In this document: piece after piece, positions 1 through 53,200 of the stretch
Position numbering within the stretch: the stretch's first letter is position 1
How the letters are laid out: every line of letters starts with the position of its first letter
Source of the DNA: Chlorops oryzae
Lineage: Eukaryota; Arthropoda; Insecta; Diptera; Chloropidae
Reading direction: 5' to 3'
Length of the DNA: 64,000 bases
Assembly: GCA_020466095.1 (NCBI GenBank)
Contig: CM035806.1
Span: forward strand, 32,192,571 to 32,256,570
The notes under the pieces: model-generated
Database searches by the model: none
The model's input: only the letters and a program-made list of their open reading frames with translations
Told to the model about the DNA's origin: nothing
Program-made: the position numbers and the translations under genes

Positions 1-440
1 CTGTCACATGCCCGATTATTTACAAAAAAAAAAATATAACGATATTTGTGGTAGGGAAAAACGTAAAGAATTGTGGGGATTTTTTTTTAGTTTGCAGGGA
101 ATTTTGCGTTTGAGTGTGGCAGCATTGCCTGTTTGTTTACTTTGGTTTTTCCAGAATTTGACAGTAGTGTTGCAGCATTTCTTCGATACATATCGAAAAA
201 CACAGAGTTGCATTCAGTTTGTTCCGGATTTCTCTTGGGATTTCGTTGAAATCCAATTTCTGAGCGGAATTCGTTTGACATTCATTTGTATGGGAAATCC
301 GCTGGATTTCGACTAGTGAAATGATGACGATGACGATGCCGTCTGAATGCCATATAAATACCACTAGTTTTTTATAACTAGTTATAAAATATTTATCAGA
401 AGCGTTATAAATGCTTCATATATAAGGGGTTTGAATCTTC
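1..440. other. Intergenic, nothing recognised
   Basis: AT-rich sequence with only short unconvincing reading frames on both strands. A small palindrome built on ataactagttat lies near 373-388. No gene, RNA or mobile-element signature was recognised before the ribozyme motif that follows. Confidence 0.6.
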
Positions 441-450
441 AAATTCCTTA

Positions 451-528
451 GCACCCCCAAAGGCCCTGATGAGTCAGGAGTGGCGAAGTGACGAAACATG
501 GCCATGTCCGCCCACACGTGAAAGGTGC
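451..528 (+). ncRNA. Hammerhead ribozyme motif (type I, short stem III)
   Basis: All catalytic-core blocks occur in order. CTGATGA is at 466-472. Stem II is GTCA (473-476) pairing TGAC (489-492) across a 12-nt loop. GAAA is at 493-496. A short stem III is ACAT (496-499) pairing ATGT (504-507) around a GGCC loop. Then comes C at 508, the predicted cleavage position in the GTC context. Stem I closes the motif: GGC (462-464) pairs GCC (510-512), and after an internal loop GCACC (451-455) pairs GGTGC (524-528). The only blemish is a C-C mismatch (465/509) at the base of stem I. Type I hammerheads with a very short stem III are known from Penelope-like retroelements and small retrozymes of animals. 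No reverse transcriptase is visible nearby, so the host element is unknown. Cleavage activity is inferred, not shown. Confidence 0.8.
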
Positions 529-539
529 AAAGGCGGTGA

Positions 540-860
540 AGCTCGAATAATTTTCAAATAACATGCAATTTTGAAATATTTTGATATAAAATTCTCACGT
601 GGCGGTGTTTATTATCAAACTCCTCCGCAACGGCTCGACCGATTTTTATGAAATGTTGTGTGCATATCGGGTAGGTCTGAGAGTCGGCCAACATTTATTT
701 TTCATTTTCCTAAATCCCAATATTTGGTCCCATCGAGCAATTTTATTTTAAGTTCCCAATGTATTAGCAATGTATTCATAGAAATATTTTTGGACTGTTG
801 CAGACGCATTTTTAATCATCTAAGTATATTGAGGGAAAGGGAGCTGGAGCGACGGAGAAG
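540..860 (+). repeat. Probable dispersed-repeat body next to the ribozyme
   Basis: Directly downstream of the ribozyme is a block around 620-705 (cggctcgaccgattttta, then tgtgtgcatatcgggtag, then a cggccaac stretch). From memory this type of sequence recurs in non-autonomous insect elements, often ones labelled Helitron-like. No element ends were found, so the assignment is tentative. The block runs into the GA microsatellite at about 860. Confidence 0.35.
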
Positions 861-1175: not shown

Positions 1176-1208
1176 GGAGCGACCACTTGATTTTCTGCTT
1201 ATATTTAT

Positions 1209-1306
1209 ACCCGACACACTCTGTGTCGAGAGTATTTTGCGTTTGTGTGGTTCTGTGTAACACCCAGAACCAGTCGAGATAGACCATACAAAATATATAT
1301 AGATGA
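1209..1306 (+). repeat. 5' fragment of dispersed repeat R1
   Basis: About 98 bp nearly identical to the start of the longer R1 copy at 5170: the CGACACA/TGTGTCG hairpin, then the tract through cacccagaaccagtcgagat and the following accatacaaaa. The copy stops abruptly after the atatatagat stretch, so it is a truncated insertion. Confidence 0.75.
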
Positions 1307-5095: not shown

Positions 5096-5169
5096 TAGAA
5101 TGAGCTAATCATTGAAATTAATGCTGTCGAGACTAGATTGACTTTGGTTAGCTCATTCATTTTCTTTAT

Positions 5170-6026
5170 TCCCGACACACTCTGTGTCGAGGGTATATTG
5201 CGTTTGTGTGGTTGTGTGTAACACCCAGAACCAGTCGAGATAGACCATACAAAACATATATAGAAATGATCAGCGTCACCAGGAGATTCGATTTAGATAT
5301 GTCCGTCCGTCTGTCTGTCCGTCTGTTTGTATACAGTTATCTTATCGAAGGAGTTGAGCTATCTTGACAAAATTTGGTATGCGTGTTCACGGGGACATGA
5401 GTAAGAACAAGTTCGAGAATGGAACCGATCAGACCATTTTTAGGGGTACCTCCAGTACTAGGGTCTGCTACGAAAACAACAAAAACTGCTCTAAAATCGG
5501 AGTTTTTCAAGAAATTTTGATGAAATGTGGTATTTGAACATGTTTAAAGGCAATTACTATGAATTGAAAAAATTGAAAAAGTGGGCGTGGCAGAAGGGCG
5601 TTTTTTGAAAATTCTCTCCTATACCCGAAATTCAAATGAGACTTGAACGAAGTTAGCACTTATGCCTCGTATGTAGCCACAAACATCCTCCCCAAAAATT
5701 TTTTTAGGCGGTCCATTATTAAGGGTACCTCCAGTACTAGGATCTGTCACAGAAATTTCAAAAGTGCCCCAAAATCGGATTTTTTCGAAATATTTCAATA
5801 AAACTTAGGATTAGAGCGTATATCTAAGCCTCCGATTGAAAATTCAAAAAAAATTGAAAAAGTGGGCGTGGCAAATGGGCTATTTTCATAAAGAAATTTA
5901 ACAAAAGTCGATATATGCGGCCCCTTATGGCCTTAAACACTTCTTGATATTAAAAATTATTCGAACATATGTGTCTGTGTCGGGCATTCTATTGTCAGGC
6001 TCGCCTGACTATAACACCCTTACTTG
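5170..6026 (+). repeat. Dispersed repeat R1, near full-length copy
   Basis: Starts with a perfect hairpin (CGACACA-ctc-TGTGTCG, 5173-5189) and ends with another (GTCAGGC-tc-GCCTGAC, 5994-6009) followed by TATAACACCCTTACTTG. Between them is a GTCCGTC/GTCTGTC tract near 5302-5325 and two diverged internal copies of a ~280-bp unit: ggtacctccagtacta at 5446 and 5725, and agtgggcgtggca at 5580 and 5860. No coding potential. The terminal hairpin suggests, but does not prove, a Helitron-like mode of movement. Confidence 0.65.
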
Positions 6027-15038: not shown

Positions 15039-17415
15039 CAGGGTGTCCTGTAAAGAATGGATAACCTTAAACTGGCTTATAGCTGACATCATGACGATTC
15101 CAAAACCGTTGCGGAACTGAATCTATCCCTCCTAGATCCCGAGTTATGGATTTTTAAGAAAATGTGAATACTTTTTGACTTATTTGTTTCCTATGCACCA
15201 CGATCGTAATCATCAATGAATTTGAAAAAGTTTTTTCTAAATATTATTCGTCTATCACGCTATTGGGTGGATGATTGAAAAAGGCTATGGCGAGCGATAT
15301 AATATTTAATTTCTATAATTAAAACTCCTGTGTTTACGAAAATTTCAACACAAAAATATTTTCTACAAACTTTAAGCACCTCTGGTTTAAAAAAATGTAT
15401 GGTAATGTGAGTGACCAATACCTATAAAAGTATGCGCGTTTATTGCAGTTTTCATAATGGTAACATTAGTTATTGTATCTTAACTACTTACTGAGTTATT
15501 GGTATATTTCTCAATAAGAACGATATTTGAATAAATAACAAAACTTAAAATTTTTTATGTTTTAGCTTCTTTTTCGTTTTTTTGGTTTTATCTGGCGACA
15601 AAGTCAATTAAGTTGGAGTAAGTGGACATGAATTATAACAGATGTTCAAATTGTTTGCCACCTTCTCTTATGCAAACTCTGCATCGACGAATAAATGACG
15701 CTCTCAGAAGTCTAGCAATGCGTCTTTCAGTTATTTTTAGCGCGGCTGTCCTTACACGGCTGAGTAAGTCTTCAAAGGACCTGATCGGTTTTTTATAAAC
15801 CTCTTTTAGGCACCCCCAATAAAAGAAATCCAAGGAATTTAAGTCCGGAGAGCGTGGAGGCCACAAAATTGGCCACATGCGACCAATCCATCTGTTCGGT
15901 ATGTGGAATTTAAGTATTCCCGTACACAGACCGCATAATGTGCCGGACAGCCAACGTTTTGGAGCCAATGAGATTCCATCATCTCCTCAGGACCTTATAA
16001 TAAATTAGGGAGATCATTCCTTAGGAATTCCAAATAACTTTGGCCAGTTAGGTTCCCCGGTAATACGAATGGCCTATATCTGTCCATTTAAAATACCAGT
16101 CCAGTAATTTATTTAAATTGGTACCGTGACCTGCCTTCTCGTCTCAGGTGAGGACTTTCAATGGACCAGCCATGAAGATATGCAAATTTAAGTAGCCATC
16201 TTTTTTAACGTCGATTCGTCGCTCCAAAGTAATTTGTTAAAAATTCTGGGCCCTCTTCAATCAATGAAAGCATTTGTCGACAAAAATTTAACCTCATGGC
16301 ACAATCTCTTGTTTCAAGATTTGCACGCGGTAACATGAAATGGGTAAAAACCGTTGTTTTTAAAATGCTGTGAAAAGAAATTTACTTATTCCAGTGCTCG
16401 AGCTATGGATCGCGTAGAGGTTGAACATCGTGCGCAATTTCCTCAAGCACCACCTCATCTCTTTGATCACGATTCTTCCAGTGCCAGCCCCACCCACACC
16501 GCTACCAGGCATTCGCCCTTCTGAAAAACAATTATGAACCCTTATAAATACGCGGTAATCGGGATGACGGGCGTTGGGATATCTCTCTCCATAAAGTGCT
16601 GCGGCCGCATTTGCATTGCCTCCACATTCCCCATAAATGAAATGCATATTGGCATATTCGGCGAATACTAGTTACGTGGCACTGTCGTTCACAATATCAC
16701 AATCAGTAACGATGGAAATATACCATTTAGACAGAAAGATTTTCTTTCAACTGATTGACAGCAACCCATAATTATTTTCACGAAAAGATATTCAGGCACG
16801 TCAAAAATAATACTTTGATGCCACCATAGCTTCTTGAAATTTAATAAATTGAATTTGTCGCCAGATAAAACCAAAAAAAACGAAAAAAAGAAGCTAAAAC
16901 ATAAAAAATTTTAAGTTTTGTTATTTATTCAAATATCGTTCTTATTGATAAATATACCAATAACTCAGTAAGTAGTTAAGATACAATAACTAATGTTACC
17001 ATTATGAAATATGCAATAAACACGCATATTTTTATAGGTATTGGTCACTCACATTACCATACATTTTTTTAAACCAGAGGTGCTTAAAGTTTGTAGAAAA
17101 TATTTTTGTGTTGAAATTTTTTCGTAAACACAAAGTTTAATTATAGAAATTAAATATTATATCGCTCCCAAGCCTTTTCAATGCATCCACCCAATAGCGT
17201 GATGAACGAATAATATTTAGCAATAAACTTTTGAAATTCATTGATATTACGATCGTGGGCATAGGAAACCAAATAAGTCAAAAAGTATTACCATTTTCTT
17301 AAAAATACCATAACTCGGGATCTAGGGGATAGATTCAGTTCCGCAACGGTTTTGGAATCGTCATGAGTCAGCTATAAGCCAGTTTAAGGTTATCCATTCT
17401 TTACAGGACACCCTG
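15039..17415 (-). mobile_element. Degenerate mariner-type transposon with ~560-bp terminal inverted repeats
   Basis: TA target duplications (15037-15038, 17416-17417) flank terminal repeats beginning CAGGGTGTCCTGTAAAGAA. The inverted arms extend about 560 bp on each side (15039-15605 and 16856-17415), unusually long for this group. The inside encodes a broken transposase on the minus strand. The N-terminal helix-turn-helix part (YGECGGNANAAAALYGERYP) is at 16360-16647 and the C-terminal catalytic part (WPPRSPDLNSLDFFYWG) at 15633-15968. Confidence 0.85.
15633..16647 (-). pseudogene. Mariner-family transposase, frameshifted remnant
   Basis: The N-terminal fragment matches the DUF4817-type DNA-binding start of many insect mariner transposases. 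The C-terminal fragment contains FHIPNRWIGR followed by WPPRSPDLNSLDFFYWG, which holds the last catalytic aspartate in SPDLNSLDFF. The middle, with the first two catalytic acids, is spread over different frames with stops, so no functional enzyme can be made. Confidence 0.8.
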
Positions 17416-34150: not shown

Positions 34151-34310
34151 CGGCCTCTGTGGCGTAGTTAATTGAGGTGCCAGCTTACGATGCGAGAGGC
34201 TCTGGGTTCAACTCCCAGCAGAGGTCGTGGATGTTATTTGTGTTCTTTTTTTTCTATTTCTGTTGTTATTTCCCCTTAATGGTGGCAGCAACACTAACCA
34301 ACCAACCAAC
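34151..34310 (+). mobile_element. tRNA-derived SINE, family A copy 2
   Basis: Head CGGCCTCTGTGGCGTAGTTA; a paired acceptor-like stem (GCCTCTG against CAGAGGT) and a perfect T-arm (CTGGG-TTCAACT-CCCAG) give a near-complete cloverleaf. The tail through CCTTAATGGTGGCAGCAACA matches the copy at 3967-4120. The conserved tail shows that it is a SINE rather than a tRNA gene. Confidence 0.75.
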
Positions 34311-44200: not shown

Positions 44201-47200
44201 ATAGATAACGCCCTTCGGTATCCAGATCAACAGCAAGATTTTGAAAGATATCCATATGAGCACTGTGCGCTATATTTGATATATTCGGTACACAGTTTTT
44301 GCTTCTGCATTAAAACAACGAAAAAAATAAATAAAATAAAATAAAATAAAGTCAAAAGATATAAATGATGACATATAGAGATTTAAAGAATATACTGTAT
44401 GTATGTATGTATGTTGGTATGAATGAGGCTCACCGTATATGTGCAATCGCTTGTGTCCCGACATACAGAACGAGCGCATTCATCAATGGAATGTTATAGC
44501 GCGAACCGGGCTCATTTGATATTTGCAAATGACTGCGCATCTCGGATAGGAAGGTGACTGGGGCGCGTGCCTTAATGTACGAGTCGAGATCCTTTTTGAA
44601 ATTCGCCGGCTGTATATTTATAACATAATTCGAGCAGATCTTTGGTGCAGCGGCTGTCTCAGCTAGCATATCTACCTTGAGATTCGGTGTGAAAGGATCT
44701 GGTAAACGCATATTACGTGGAAATGCAGCCAATATGATATTACGCATTTGAATGCAATTTGGTGGTATAGCATCACAGAAACCAAAATGATAGTCACATA
44801 GGAATTCAGGATAGTCGTGCAGCAATACCAATAGTACACGCAATGTACCATTATACATAAGATGCACTGGTTTAGCTAATTCGGCATTGCGCAGAAATGG
44901 TGCTAGATACTTAAATAGATCCATCAGCAATTGAGCATAGAGCGGCCAGCCCTTTTGTTGTGGTATCTGGCCCAATATCCGACCAATGAAAACACGATGC
45001 GATATCAGTTCGAGCCAAGCATAACAGAAGCTCGGCGCAAGCGATGGACAAAGCAGATGGTAAGTGTACGAGAAGGCAGCAACGATGCTGTGCATTAAGC
45101 TCTCGAGTACAGCGTCAGGTGAGTTTAATTCAAGGAAGAGCATAATAAAGAAACGATGGTAGCCAACCTGTTGGAATGATGTACCACGTAGCTCTTGATC
45201 TTGTAGCAAAAGTCCTAGAACAATGCCAAGAACTTTGTTAAGTAGATTTATTTTGGTCATTGGATTTCCAGCTTCGCCGGAATGACGGACGAGCAGTGCA
45301 ATCAAATGTACAAAGGCATCGATCCAGTGGAAAATTTTTGTTTTAGCTTGTATTGCATTTTGTGTCTGATCATTGAGTATACGATATACAAGATCGATAC
45401 AGAATTGCGTTGATTGGCGAAAGAAACGTGTGATCAGATCGTCGGTTGTAAGAATTCCATAGAAATTCATTTTTTGTACAAAAGACGTAAAGTTTTTCGT
45501 TTCACGTGATAGTGTATTGGTCTGTGAGTAAATCGATACCCAATCCTTGAGAAGGAATTCTGTTTTCTCGAGCAATCCGGGCGGGTCTTCGCCATCATTT
45601 GCTCGTACATGTTGCATCCCAGAGTGTATATATTGCGTGGCACCAGTCAAATAACGATCGACAGTACCAAATGCTGCTGCACTATCGACAGCATTGTTGT
45701 TCGCTATGCTAGCATTGCCAAGACCACCACCCCAAAGCATTTCAATAAGGCGTGTTAATGCCTCCGGATAACGATGGCGATGTTGTGTCATGCGACCGAG
45801 CATTTCCAGTGTTCCCATGAATTCCGTTTCGGCAACAACCGAAACAGAACGCTCATCGACGAGCAGACGCTCCATTAAAGTCATAGTAAAGGTAACGGCA
45901 AGATAATTGTTACCATTATCCATAGCATCGCGCAATAGCATATCGAATTGTGGTACATTTATCAAATGTGATGTGATAAGTAGCTTAATGGCCTCAACAT
46001 TATATCGTACTTCGTCGCGTATATCGAAAATGCATTTTGTGATTGCACGTTCGGTCGCCGGTGCTCCAAATGTGCTCTGCAGCAACGTCAGTATCCGTAA
46101 ATGTATGTCACGGTACAGTTTCATTGGCTCGACATGCTCGGGTAGATTCACATAGCCTTCAATAAAGCCTTCAATCGTTCGCGTTAGTAAATTCAATGCA
46201 GATTCATTATCGCGCAAACGTCTTGCGACCATCAATGAATTGAGCAGAACATGCACTTTCGAGGCTTGCAATTGCAAATTTGTTGCATTGACCGTATTAT
46301 TGAGGAATGCCTCCATTTTCTGTGCCAATTCCGTATACAATAGACCCAATTCATCAGTTGCGAATGCAGTTGGCGGCGGTAGATCTTGCGGCTTTGGTAA
46401 GAAGAGTGCAATGTCACGTTCGGACATTGTCTGGAAGCCTGGTAGATTTCGTGCGAATTCTGCATAGACAGCAAATTGATTGGACGGTATAACGCCAACT
46501 TTAAGGCGTACCTGCTCAGGCATACGTTCTGTTTGATATGCTAGAGTTTGTGCATCGAAGAATCGATTACCTTCGTCGCGTGATATCTTTCTTGTCTCAT
46601 AGTCGGTTGCTAGTCGACGATCGATTTCGGGTGTTGATTTTTCCGCTGCCGTTTTCTGTATGAACGCACAGGCGAGTTCGGCATTATCACTGGCCATTTG
46701 TTGTGCCGCTGCGTCGACTTCTTGGAAATTTGGACCATTGGGGCCACTGTTAGAGAGTGCTGCGAGAAAAGCCTTTTTCAAATTATTATTCAATGCCTGA
46801 ATTAGCTGATCCTTGCAGGTAATCATTGCCATGCCAGCAGCCAGATTTCGTACCATCTGGTGTGCGGCTGTTCGCATCCGATGTTCATCTCCGTCCAGCG
46901 CAAAATCTTTCCGTATGATGTGCTCTGTTGTGGTAGCAGCAATACGTACACTCCGATCAACCACTGGCTGTAACCATTCGGTGACCGTGCGTTCCAATGC
47001 GGCTAAAAGTAAATGCTTCAGGCTCGGATTGGCATGCAAGAATGCAACATTGGGAGAGAGTACAATGTGCTGGGCGATCAATTGGAAATTGGCAATATTA
47101 ATGTCTATATAAGCATAGCGTGGTTCACGTGCTGGTATGATCATTTGTGTTGACGTTGATTCGTTTCCGATACTTGGTGATGGTATAACAGCTCCTGGTA

Positions 47201-50200
47201 CACCAGGAACAACACTACCGCTCGCTATCAGCATCGCTTGCGCATCATTTTCGGCATTCGAGCTCATTGGTGTCGTTTGTGCTGTCGTTGGAGCGGTTGG
47301 TGTTGGTGTCGGTTGTTGCTGGTGCTGTGGTTGTAGCTGTTGCGGCTGTTGTTGTTGTTGCTGCTGCTGCTGTGTTGTTGCTGTTGCAGCTGCTGCTGCT
47401 GCTGCTGTTGTTGTTGTTGTTGTTGTGTCTGTTGCGGTTGTGGTTGCGGTAGTGGTTGCGGCAGTGGTTGTGGTTGCGGTTGTGCAGCTGGTGTATCACT
47501 TGATTTTGATTTCAATTGTGACATTTGATGCTCTAAATTTATTGCACGACTTGGATCCTTGAGATAAACGATCGGCTTTATTTTCTGCAAGTCAATGCTC
47601 AAGTGTTTTGCAAAGAACTTCAATTTCGAATTTGAGATTTAATTTTAAATCGGGCTCCTGATGTAGTTCAGCGAGCACCATCATAATGCCCATTGTCCAT
47701 GGATTCGGTGATTTGAAAACTTTCGATTTATTTGTTGATTCCATGATTTTGGCAATAAAAGGTACAACAAAAAGCAATTCTTGCTGTCCCTTAAGATATG
47801 CTTCCGCAAGTAAACCCTTTAAATCTAAATCGACTTGAAGAATTGGCTTATTCTTTGACAGAGTCATCATACCTAACCAATGGCCAAGATTTTTTAATAG
47901 ACTGCGATCGGAGAAATTTACAACGCCTTTATCGGTGCGTAATAGTACTTTTATATTACGCAATGTTTCTTTTGTAACGTATTTGTTAATTTCAGGATTC
48001 TTAAGTGCTTCCAAAAAGTTGAAATATGACGAATGGAAATTAAATTCTATTGAGGCACGCTTTAACACCAAATACTGTGCCAGCCATGGCCAATATTCTT
48101 TCGTCATAATTTCCTTGATCTCTTCACATTTCTGCGGTATATTCAATTGGCTTAAATTATTGAATATGAATGCGGTCTTATCCTGTACGGTTTCTGGTGG
48201 AATTGTCAGCTTTTCCTCTTGATTTGCAACGAGTAAAGTATCAATATTTGTTGCAGTCGCAATGGACTTCATACGCGAAGCGTGTATTGACTGTGATACT
48301 ACCATGGGTTTCTGTTGTGTGGGAGTAGTAACTAAATTGCCTGAGGCGGGAGAAAAAAAAAAAGAAAAACTATTTAATATTGACTAATAAAACATTCAAT
48401 TCAAAATTGAATTCAATTCAATCAAATCGAATTAAATTAATTAAATCGTCTACACCCGCATTCATATTCATATCAGACCTGTTAAATCCCGATTAAGATT
48501 AATAATCATGAATTATTGTTCTTTTTTTAATCCATAATCATTATTAATTTAACTTCTTGAAATTTTTGATTATTAATGATTGCGATTACCAAATAATCGT
48601 GAAATAATCATGATTATTTTAGATTAATGAAAAAAATCAGAAAAAATCAAAAAATAATCAAAAAAATAATCCCGATTAATTTTAGATTATTTTTGAATAT
48701 TTTTGATTATTTTTGATTTTTCCTGATTATTTTTGGGTTTTTTGATTTTTTTTGATTATTTTTGATTTGTTCTGATTTTTTTTTATTAATTTTAATTATT
48801 TTCAATTTGTATTTGAATAACATCGTTTTTCCAAAGTTTCCCTATAGTCCGTGGGACCGGCACCGGACAAGTGAATTCACCGGCCACCTGTGGTTAGGAC
48901 CACCCCTCGTCAAACCACCGGCAATACTTTCGAGAGGCGAATTTTACATTGCGATGTCATAGGCAAGGACATATGGGCCCCTCGCTGTACTACATTTAAT
49001 TATATTCAATTACAAATTGAAAATAATTAAAATTAATAAAAAAATCAGAACAAATCAAAATTAATCAAAAAAAATCAAAAAACCCAAAAATAATCAGGAA
49101 AAATCAAAAATAATCAAAAAAAAATCAAAAATAATCTAAAATTAATCGGGATTATTTTTTTGATTATTTTTTGATTTTTTCTGATTTTTTTCATTAATCT
49201 AAAATAATCATGATTATTTGGTAATCGCAATCATTGATTAATATAGGTCATACAAAAATAATCATTAAATAATCACTATTTCACTCATAAGAAAAAAATA
49301 ATCTGATTAATTAATCATTAATTAAATAATCATTATTTAACAGGTCTGATTCATATTCATAATCACATTCACATTCACATTCGCATTCACATTCAAGTCG
49401 ATTACTCACCTGTCACTGAATTACTTCGATAACTGTAACACGGTTCGGCGTTTGGCATTCCAGTTGCACTGCTACCATACTCGACGTACTGTATTAGATG
49501 CGGTGGAAAATCTTGAAAATGCGGTATGGAACGTATAAACTCGCAGTATTTGTTATAGGTATTTAAACGTGTCTTAAAGCGATCCAGCGCAGTTATACCA
49601 AAATAGTACATTTTTGTGCCCTCTGATTTCTTTAAAGCATCGAGCACGCAACGCAAGGCCAGTCCGAGTGCAACTGGTGTAGGTACTAAATTACGTTCGA
49701 TTATGCCACCGAATAATTGTGCGGTTATTTGTAATTCCTTTTCCGGATACTTGGGAAAGAAGCGGTACTCTTCGAATAGATTTCGTAGCATACAGAGATA
49801 GACCTCCTGTTCGCGTCGTATGTTCGAGTCTTTGAAACGTTGTAATATATCGAGTACTTCATCGATCGAAAGTGTCGGATGTGGTGAATGATTGTAGATT
49901 CGTTGAAAATAGGAGTTTGCTTCCTTTTCGGTTTCCTTTGAGACTGGTGCATGAAGATCGGTTATTTCGGGATTATTTGGATTGTTCGGATTTGGTGGTG
50001 TTGGTGCTGGCGGGGGCGCTGTTGGTGCCGTCGGTGGCATACGGCCCAAATTGCCAACGTTCGGTGGTGGTGGTGCTTGCATTTGCATCGGATTCATTGG
50101 ATATGGACTAACAGTTGGATTCATTAGGCGTGATGGTGATGCTGGCGTTGAGACAAGATTTCCTTTAATTGAAATTTCCAAGGGAAATATTGAAATAATA

Positions 50201-53200
50201 ATAATATAGATAGATAGATAGGATGGCAGATGAATAAATCATATTGTGAATAGATAGACAGATATGTAGATATGTATGTACATAGATAAATAGCAAACAT
50301 AAAAATATAGAAACATAGATAGATTAGATGGATAGGATAGGATAGGATAGGATATGATAGACAGATATATACAGAGAGATACATATGTAGATCGATTGAT
50401 GATCAACTTACCCAGCATATTTCCAAAATTAAATGCACTGCCATTGGGATTGCCTAGATTCAGTCCAGCTATATTTGTCGTAAGATTTGAAAGCGTATCC
50501 ATGCTCGGGCCAAACATTTGCTGTGCATTGAGATTTGCTGAAAATGGTATTGGCGGAACGCCTGTAGGTCCAACACCGCCGCCGGTCATATCGATGCCAC
50601 GATGACCGCGCATTACATTCGGTTGTGGTGGCATTATTCCTTGTGGCCCTTGGACAGCACGTGCCTTATTCGTTAGCATCGTACAATTGGCTGACATTTG
50701 CATAATTAAATCAGCAATTTCTGGAGGTACGCTGGCCATCTGTAGACAAGTTAACATTGTTGCGACTGTATCCGGTGGCAGTTGTGCCTGCTTCGGTGGT
50801 AATTGATCCTCGGGAATTTTGGCATTCGTTATTTGTGGACAGCGTCGTTGTAGACACTTTAGCATAGCCTGTATAAAGGGTTCACCATGTTCGCGTATTT
50901 TATCACCTAACCATTTTTCCAATTTCAGATATTCACGTCTCGATGCGAGACATGCCAGATCAATCGAAAAGAGAAACGAACGGACATTCAAAAGCGTCGA
51001 TAGAGCTTTCAAATCGTGCGCCACATCCAATATACGCGATAATTTACCCTGATCGTATTCCGTGCCACGTAAATACCATTCCGACATTGCGTGCATTATG
51101 ACCGGACGCAGTGTTATACCGAAATTTGCTGAATTCCAAGCTCCAGCCAATATAACAGACGCATTCGGATGACTTGATAAAAATGTTGGAACCAGTTGTG
51201 TAAAGAGCTCCGAACGTAATGCTGTCATCGGTGGATTTATATGCAAGAGTGCCAGAAATAGTATATCCGGACATGTTGTTATTGGGAATTTAAAGAGATC
51301 ATGGACTTGTGAATAGTAACCCTGATCGGCGATATACAGCAGCACTTCAACTAAATGCATATTCTTCCATGTACCGATCTCCTTATTCTCGGGATCGGGT
51401 AATGACTTGAGCATATCGAGAGGTACGGATGTATAGATGTGATCGGCAAACGAGAATATATCGTTATATTTCAACATCACAGTTATTAGGGACAATTGTC
51501 CTTCGACATTTTGCCAATGACGATAAAGACACTCCGGATGAGGAAACCCATTCGATTGTGTTGCCAAGCGGAGTATGGTCATCAATAAGTCGAGTCCGAT
51601 ACGATCTTTGATTAGGAATTCGGGATGATCGAATTCTAAAAAATTATAATACAGAAGAAATATGATAGATTATTCTTTGAAATGGGGGGGGTTCATAATT
51701 TTTCAATTTTTTGTCATTGCTTTGTTCTTCCATTGTGTCGGAAATTCTTGCAAATATTTAATACATGCAAACGTTTGGAGCCACCCTGCAGGAAGCCTGT
51801 CGCCAAATGGCCCCATGTCTATATTGACGTCAATATAAAAAAGAGAACTAGTTCCAACGTCAACAGTATTTATAGGCGGTGTCACTAAAGAATCTGTACT
51901 GTCAAGAGGTATATTTCATCTTTATGGACCATGTCAACAACGTGTCTCCTTATAATGCGAAAGAGTACTCCTTTTGTGTACATAATAGTACCGACGTCAA
52001 TAGTTCGTCAATAGTTTTTTCGGTCTACTGTTGACATTCAATGACAACTCAATGATAAAATGTCAATAGAAAAAGGCTTGGGGCGGGTATAACTGGTCAG
52101 TAGTGACGTTGACGCGGTCAGTAGTGAAAGAGTATAGATTCACTATTGACATTTCCTACAGGGCAATTACAACAAAAGAATGAGCAGTTGATTGCAACTC
52201 GTTCTATATGTTTGCGTGTGTTGAACAACAGTTTACGCTATTGGGAACCCCTGGTATATTAAATTTGAGCAAAGGAAACATACTATTTCCAGGTATTGTT
52301 CTCATAAAAAGAATATAATTAATAAAAAAAAAAAAATAAAAAAAAATTGTAATGCATCACCCTCTAATGCTTAACAGAGGCTCAAGGCATTCTTTACAAA
52401 ACCTTTTTCAATGGCAAACGTAAAAAATTTTAATGCGGAAAACCCGTTTTTAATGGTTATAACAGTTGTATGAAAATATCTGTAGAATCTTGGAAAACTC
52501 TCAAAAGCTTCCTTCTCTATATAGATGGAGATATATCTTCCGTTACACATATCAAGAATGTGCATTTACGACGAAAAAAATTGGACGTGGACGTGTTTTT
52601 CTTTCATATTCCATTTTAAGTGATTTTTAAGTTCCTCGATCGTGCTTATAATTTTTTTTTCGAACAGATTAAGTTTAAGTTTTATTGCTTGGAGGAACAT
52701 TGAACATTATTGAAGGTAAGTTCTTTGTGATATCAGTTAATTATCAATGAGTGCCTGCCTTAAGGCACTCTTGGGCATTCAAGAGTAAATTTTTTACAGC
52801 TTTTTGTTCTGGATTTCTTTCAAAGAGGACCACTTTTGATTGTTTTTTTGATTAGCATTTTCTTTAAAGGCTTGGTAAAGGGGGATAATATTGATCTTCA
52901 TATAGAAATGAAGAATATGAAATCAAAATCTGAGTCTCCAAATCGGATAGAATCGAATTTTGACGTATTGAAATATTTATTGACCTTAGTTATCTTAGTG
53001 CTGCGGGTAAGCTATTGGCTTCAGCGATGTGGTTAAGTGTATAAAGTGGGGGTTCGTGCCCAGTTGGGGACAACTCATGGTTACTTTTTTTGCGATAGTG
53101 TTAATTTTTTTTTTAATTCCACATTTAGTGGTAGTGCAATTTTTTTTTCAATTACCACTAAAAAGTAGTGCTAGTGCAATTTCGATTTTAAATTCCACTA

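Follow-up and report, generated by a model that had tools for sequence, protein, structure and literature searches.

A type I hammerhead motif in the window

The window analyzed here, a 64,000-nucleotide stretch of Chlorops oryzae DNA, contains a frame matching the insect CCR4-NOT scaffold CNOT1, several repeats, a marginal tRNA match and a hammerhead motif that lies within a fragment of a repeat family (Table 1). An earlier note on this DNA had named the core letters, three stems, a GGCC-capped stem III and an internal loop in stem I at positions 451–528, and direct reading of the window confirmed all of these letters and pairings. They stand in the type I order: an open stem I, CUGAUGA, stem II, GAAA, stem III, the letters UC (of which C508 is C17) and the returning strand of stem I, where the naming of C17 follows established hammerhead numbering. 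Judged by its letters, the motif lacks no part of a type I hammerhead and has a single C-C mismatch, which adjoins the cleavage site. That it lies in a fly-like genome, as the note had also proposed, agrees with the CNOT1 match and with the Penelope-like protein of this genome, the best named relatives of which are from flies.

The mismatch (C465-C509) occupies the 1.1-2.1 position, beside the predicted cleavage site; the remainder of proximal stem I pairs 462–464 with 510–512 in the window copy. The core positions C3, U4, G5, A6, N7, G8 and A9, G12, A13 and A14, the A15.1-U16.1 pair and H17 are found both in the window copy and in the consensus of the family described below. PMC3088659 gives as a criterion for a hammerhead that the core has no mispair adjacent to it. 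The window copy has one at 1.1-2.1 (C-C), and the family consensus has none; we therefore class the window copy as decayed and the family as a member of the type I hammerheads. The hammerhead in the window probably has little or no activity.

A relaxed type I descriptor, drafted after the motif had been seen and with distal stem I optional, matched the window once and matched dinucleotide-shuffled windows 9 times in 2000 shuffles (0.0045 per window), which scales to approximately 30 chance matches over the whole genome. The descriptor alone leaves chance open at the scale of the genome. The reading that a 64 kb window fits a relaxed hammerhead pattern by luck, to which those 30 or so accidents lend some room, is nevertheless barely conceivable: the motif belongs to a high-copy family and is paired beside the core, and it is this membership, rather than the descriptor rate alone, that rules out chance over the whole genome. 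The plain fold of 441–538 was ordinary (z −0.87).

An Rfam covariance search, which the note had suggested as a check, gave no hammerhead family in the window even at E ≤ 10, and copies of the family whose core is fully paired likewise lacked a hammerhead match. This silence carries no weight, because 12 phage or prokaryote loci that pass the descriptor, searched as a control at the gathering threshold, gave only tRNAs and a twister, and were thus missed as well. The covariance model R1, built from 66 phage type I hammerheads with no fly sequence included, matched the window at 460–514 (+) with 20.3 bits (E = 3.1e-4), the sole other listed place having E = 0.48. On 21 fly loci it gave 48 matches; 36 scored 26.6 bits (E = 1.5e-6), and a weaker tail ran to E = 0.07. 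On 27 further loci, a run from which L199 was left out, it gave 37 matches in 25 loci (none in L197 and L210), the best at 29.9 bits. Intact, fully paired family copies score 26.6 bits and more (E about 1e-6). Scanning viral contigs with a hammerhead pattern gave 0 matches, and 17 prokaryote contigs matched, none of them of fly origin. With the pattern CTGATGAGTCA..TGACGAAAC, 13 of these 17 are from Legionella (L001–L011, L015, L016), and the type I hammerhead descriptor fits somewhere in 7 of the 13.

Table 1. Features of the 64,000-nt window. Unit position 1 is the base that follows the cleavage site.
Feature	Position	Strand	Remarks
Retrozyme fragment	357..569	+	Unit positions 208–356, then 1–59; 82% identity
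Distal stem I, 5' strand GCACC	451..455	+	Sequence; seen in most aligned copies
Proximal stem I, 5' strand GGCC	462..465	+	C465 mismatched; family consensus G
Conserved core CUGAUGA (DNA CTGATGA)	466..472	+	Sequence, descriptor, model R1
Stem-loop II, GUCA/UGAC	473..492	+	Strands 473–476/489–492; family consensus adds a fifth pair
Conserved core GAAA	493..496	+	A496 is 15.1; sequence, model R1
Stem-loop III, ACAU-GGCC-AUGU	496..507	+	12-nt palindrome; strands 496–499/504–507, GGCC cap
C17 at cleavage site	508..508	+	Predicted cut at the 508/509 bond
Proximal stem I, 3' strand	509..512	+	C509 mismatched; sequence, model R1
Distal stem I, 3' strand GGTGC	524..528	+	Sequence
Tail motif AAGCTC	539..544	+	Position common to Penelope-like tails of the same genome
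Possible dispersed insect repeat	601..720		Just downstream of the retrozyme; no second copy within the window
Direct repeat, 100 bp	1204..1303 and 5165..5264		95% identical; related stretch in L158 and L160
Inverted repeat, 292 nt	15292..15583 and 16876..17167		Arms 93% complementary, separated by 1.3 kb; probable DNA element of the foldback or MITE-like kind
Marginal tRNA match	34153..34226	+	29.5 bits, cut-off 29
Frames adjoining the CNOT1 frame	44430..50238	-	Possible further exons
Frame matching insect CNOT1	50239..51669	-	Best match 65% identity

The motif belongs to a family of retrozyme-like repeats

The search for other genomic copies that keep the hammerhead, proposed along with the motif, came out positive: the 23-nt core comprising stem III and the cleavage site occurs at 210 places in the 442 Mb genome at ≤1 mismatch (reversed control pattern, 0), and the consensus hammerhead is paired beside its conserved core. 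A 116-nt query against the same genome gave 40 scored places of 329 candidates, all at E ≤ 2.4e-30. The host element, which the note had proposed to define from flanks aligned genome-wide, is a retrozyme-like unit of ~356 nt that is found singly or in tandem. One tandem array (L146) consists of 17.8 units of 356 nt that are 98% alike, a second has 3.4 units of 363 nt, and further neighboring family copies are spaced 346–386 nt apart. The unit has a GC content of 37.9% and its longest frame, even when read round, is 49 codons. It thereby has the traits of a non-LTR retrozyme, being a repeat in the range of 150–450 bp with a type I hammerhead, in single and tandem copies, with a GC content below 50% and no protein frame. 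The reverse transcriptase plus GIY-YIG frame of a Penelope-like element (PLE) is lacking: no frame exceeds 49 codons, and there is no similarity to the PLE loci compared.

The note had placed the motif with Penelope-like elements and retrozymes, and had left the carrier unexplained. A mobile element it is, but not one with the minimal Penelope-type motif, as stem III has four pairs and a tetraloop; the carrier is a retrozyme-like repeat. Because such a repeat is non-autonomous, no reverse transcriptase is expected beside the motif. By its sequence, 357–569 is what remains, truncated and decayed, of one copy of a non-autonomous retrotransposon of the type known as animal retrozymes.

Within the fetched loci, 91 hammerhead stretches were found, of which 41 and 16 fall on two modal sequences that are one loop II base apart. 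The dominance of these two sequences points to a recent spread; considering that the loci were chosen by their hammerhead matches, intact copies are over-represented among them. The alignment of 18 copies has a mean column identity of 95%, which makes the copies too alike to bear out the claim that GTCA/TGAC and GCACC/GGTGC are compensatory pairings. The C-C mismatch, correctly noticed, is confined to the window copy: the base at 2.1 is G in the other 17 of 17 aligned copies and C in the window copy alone. In addition, stem II of the family is GUCAC/GUGAC (5 pairs), while a G at the fifth position leaves the window copy with 4. Since all 17 other copies have the 2.1 G, and L150, L151 and L155, which are of the same older type as the window copy, keep both this G and the fifth stem II pair, both changes are private losses of the window copy. 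In six of six old copies the hammerhead part is nearer to the consensus (91–96%) than the rest (82–88%), a result that is favored by the hammerhead-centered query. The window copy was assigned by BLAST to the shorter of two 3' end classes (see below), with an uncertain border, as ~8 extra nt are followed by a resemblance to older copies up to about 584. The window copy has lost its 1.1-2.1 pair and is probably a fossil, in a retrozyme family that is otherwise young.

The predicted circular fold of the unit is −101.3 kcal/mol, compared to −70.7 ± 5.0 kcal/mol for dinucleotide shuffles, none of 200 being as low (z −6). For a 91-nt consensus, the minimum-energy fold (−30.0 kcal/mol) beats the forced hammerhead (−20.1 kcal/mol): the hairpin CCGCC-CACA-GGCGG competes with stem I and wins. 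Whether the RNA cuts may therefore be governed by the order in which it folds, by tertiary contacts, by the presence of tandem copies or by a protein; PMC11167929 reports a PLE hammerhead that is assisted by protein. A pseudoknot between loop II and stem I was considered and dropped, as by eye at most 3–4 pairs appear possible (GUG/CAC). Simple patterns for Pol III boxes A and B found none on the sense strand of the unit and one A-box-like match on the other strand.

Insertions end at two sites downstream of the hammerhead

Ends were mapped for 53 element pieces, omitting L154, of which the lower end reaches the edge of the fetched stretch; L138–L145 are duplicates of other loci, and L167, an edge row, lies outside the 53. 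In this set, L198 and L199 share their 3' flank, so that one insertion is counted twice, and two ends come from each of L146 and L161. A stricter set of 47 drops duplicate, edge, N-flanked and twin-primed cases (L199, L167, L217, L146, L161). Among the 53 pieces, 20 of the 3' ends fall at unit positions 45–60, 31 at 101–121 and 2 elsewhere (89 and 173); the latter, from the second piece of L149, falls at 194 under other BLAST settings. In other words, 51 of 53 3' ends fall in two windows that make up 14% of the unit length. With windows of 45–66 and 99–126, which were drawn after the ends had been seen, the strict set has 45 of 47 3' ends inside and only 2 of 47 5' ends. There are therefore two 3' end zones, about 55 and 114 nt past the cleavage site, whereas the 5' ends are scattered, and at both 3' end sites ATATG precedes A-rich sequence.

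Direct repeats of 7–13 bp are in excess around these insertions. Repeats of at least 8 bp flank 9 of the 47 insertions (1.6 expected; none of 5000 flank-exchange permutations reached 9), although the repeat of L221 is an A-run and that of L157 overlaps element-like letters. Target duplications above 4 bp, a trait of non-LTR retrozymes, are thus present, while most insertions lack repeats of at least 8 bp. The flanks have an AT content of 83% on the 3' side and 74% on the 5' side. L146 and L161 carry inverted 5' pieces that terminate on their outer side at one of the same two 3' end sites, an arrangement as in twin priming, and the flanks of L200 and L210 read like such cases. Insertions longer than 400 nt make up 18 of the 47.

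Ordinary satellite DNA, spread by unequal exchange and carrying a hammerhead incidentally, would account for tandem arrays of up to 17.8 units. It would not account for the 29 of 47 insertions that are at most 400 nt long and dispersed, nor for two 3' end zones with scattered 5' ends and direct repeats, so that plain satellite DNA is largely refuted by the insertion ends and most unlikely. From the pattern of ends we infer instead reverse transcription from a circle or multimer with two internal start sites. Two internal 3' end sites downstream of a hammerhead are also the pattern expected of Penelope-like mobilization.

A possible tail motif shared with Penelope-like elements

PLEs are present in the same genome, as they are for non-LTR retrozymes. 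At least 19 GIY-YIG matches were found, all within 17 loci; 16 of these loci were compared and fall into PLE lineages, L194 (GIY-YIG match at C4) being omitted because no RT-like frame was seen. Pfam found RVT_1 in three of three PLE frames (one below cut-off). It found GIY-YIG in two of them, and for the remaining frame the genome search had given a GIY-YIG match. The PLE-A frame has 730 aa, while complete relatives, in several flies, mostly have 800–830 aa; an intact autonomous copy may therefore be lacking, though L178 and L179 show 99.9% identity across 2479 bp.

PLE-A, PLE-B and PLE-C carry the letters CTGARGA...GAAACGTT, with the variant GAATCGTT in L190 and no stem III loop, which we take, from letters and position, for a putative minimal PLE hammerhead. 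On the 17 PLE loci, R1 left these minimal motifs unmatched, and its one match is another hammerhead. This second and different hammerhead (L191:1799–1847, minus strand; 22.4 bits, E = 1.2e-4) has a 2-nt loop III and lies about 1.3 kb past the end of a PLE-B copy. The suspicion that the window motif is the hammerhead of a PLE's own terminal repeat finds some footing in the existence of these motifs and in the stem II letters of PLE-A (GTCAC/GTGAC), which equal those of the retrozyme. However, the PLE motifs have CTGARGA and no loop on stem III, and no sequence similarity links the unit with the PLE loci that were read (best E 0.27), which refutes this origin for the PLE copies read and makes it very unlikely overall.

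We read 13 PLE tails, two of the three in L186 sharing a flank and thus not being independent, and placed the short PLE ends by eye, where copies part. In PLE-A, AAGCTC lies at +56/57 after the cleavage site of the motif and the end at about +116, with end letters common to six of six copies, all of which showed the long end only. In PLE-B, AAGCTC lies at +53/54, with ends at about +117–120 in L185 and L186 and a short end about 25 nt after the A of AAGCTC in L191. In PLE-C it lies at +54, and the end follows about 24 nt on (L190, L193). The PLE tail of L188 has TAGCTC in its place, and a fourth PLE lineage (L189) reads AAGCTA. The retrozyme has AAGCTC at +30, with its short end 26 nt on and its long end at +114. 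AAGCTC thus precedes the short end by 24–26 nt in PLE-B (one copy), PLE-C (two copies) and the retrozyme. The long end, counted from the start of AAGCTC, lies at 85 nt in the retrozyme versus about 61 in PLE-A and roughly 65–70 in PLE-B. A stem opens immediately ahead of N-AAGCTC in both kinds of element, though with different sequences (GACCAA/TTGGTC in PLE-A and PLE-B, GCGGT/ACCGC in the retrozyme), and in both the short end falls in the loop of this stem and the long end beyond it.

When the unit was shuffled, any of six PLE-conserved 6-mers was shared in 149, 297 and 461 of 20000 shuffles for distances of 24–26, 22–28 and 20–30 nt, respectively. The resemblance suggests that a PLE reverse transcriptase may move the retrozymes, although the statistic is modest (1–2% by chance) and the PLE ends are few. 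We lean slightly towards the view that animal retrozymes are parasites of PLEs: retrozyme RNA would mimic a PLE tail by its hairpin, AAGCTC, a short start ~25 nt on and a long start past the hairpin, and the PLE reverse transcriptase would begin at these sites.

It is also possible, if less probable, that a LINE moves the retrozyme by L1- or RTE-like target-primed reverse transcription, the two 3' ends being recognized by the LINE or simply A-rich. The 7–13 bp direct repeats and the inversions that resemble twin priming fit such a machinery, as do the A-runs that follow the long end in a sizeable share of copies (e.g., L165, L196, L195 and L207), since L1-type machinery gives A-runs too. Many retrozyme 3' ends have no A-run, however, two internal start sites are a published signature of PLEs (PMC11167929), and AAGCTC stands at an equal distance in the PLE tails.

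Proposed mechanism

Taken together, we consider it very likely that the window holds a decayed retrozyme copy from a family that is copied from circles or multimers at two sites, with a PLE enzyme as its less firmly held part. In this scheme, tandem copies would be transcribed, and each hammerhead would cut at C17 to release unit-length RNAs, which a host ligase would circularize. With AT-rich target DNA as primer, a reverse transcriptase would then start some 55 or 114 nt past the cut, at either of the two internal sites, and would read round the circle or along a multimer, giving insertions of less or more than one unit. Less firmly, the enzyme would be that of a PLE, the own RNA of which appears to have a hammerhead-like motif, a tail bearing AAGCTC and the same short and long kinds of 3' end.

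Comparison with known systems

Animal non-LTR retrozymes, as presented in PMC7229834 and PMC7761336 for coral, mussel and axolotl, resemble the fly unit in having a type I hammerhead; in being repeats that measure a few hundred bp and occur in tandem or singly, with low GC and no long frames; and in their direct repeats over 4 bp, a predicted self-paired circle and PLEs in the genome. This likeness is one of description rather than of sequence alignment, and these sources call animal retrozyme sequences species-specific. PMC7229834 mentions insects among the hosts of animal retrozymes, with no fly named in the parts consulted. Among Diptera, the hammerheads of Rhagoletis, Musca, Hermetia and Drosophila pseudoobscura covered by PMC7936874 share the internal loop in stem I, but are of type III, with an open stem III, whereas the window motif is of type I, with an open stem I. 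The hammerheads of Aedes aegypti repeats in PMC3088659, again compared by description, are likewise borne by repeats in a dipteran, and a palindromic stem III and loop III are mentioned there for several such repeats. Our literature search, which covered openly accessible main texts, found no type I retrozyme in a higher fly and no PLE-like double end in a retrozyme. The kind of element is already known; novelty may lie in the double 3' end and in the motif common to retrozyme and PLEs.

With respect to PLEs, the closest parallel is the lizard element of PMC11167929, which starts at two adjacent internal sites and so acquires an optional "tail" of 30–40 bp. The fly retrozyme has the same signature, a hammerhead followed by a tail with two putative start sites, and both PLEs and the retrozyme have AT-rich targets and tandem copies. 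They differ in that the retrozyme has no protein, has a hammerhead with a real stem III, and has 30 nt between hammerhead and AAGCTC as opposed to 53–57 in the PLEs of the same genome. With a retrozyme, PLEs, a pair of 3' end zones and a short common motif all in one fly genome, the question of the enzyme becomes directly testable. PLEs were proposed as helpers of retrozymes from their co-occurrence, according to the 2020 review PMC7761336, which also states that no known motif tells the autonomous partner; if the mimicry of the AAGCTC tail is true, the two 3' end zones and the PLE-shared motif seen in the fly would provide the first sequence feature that names the machinery moving animal retrozymes.
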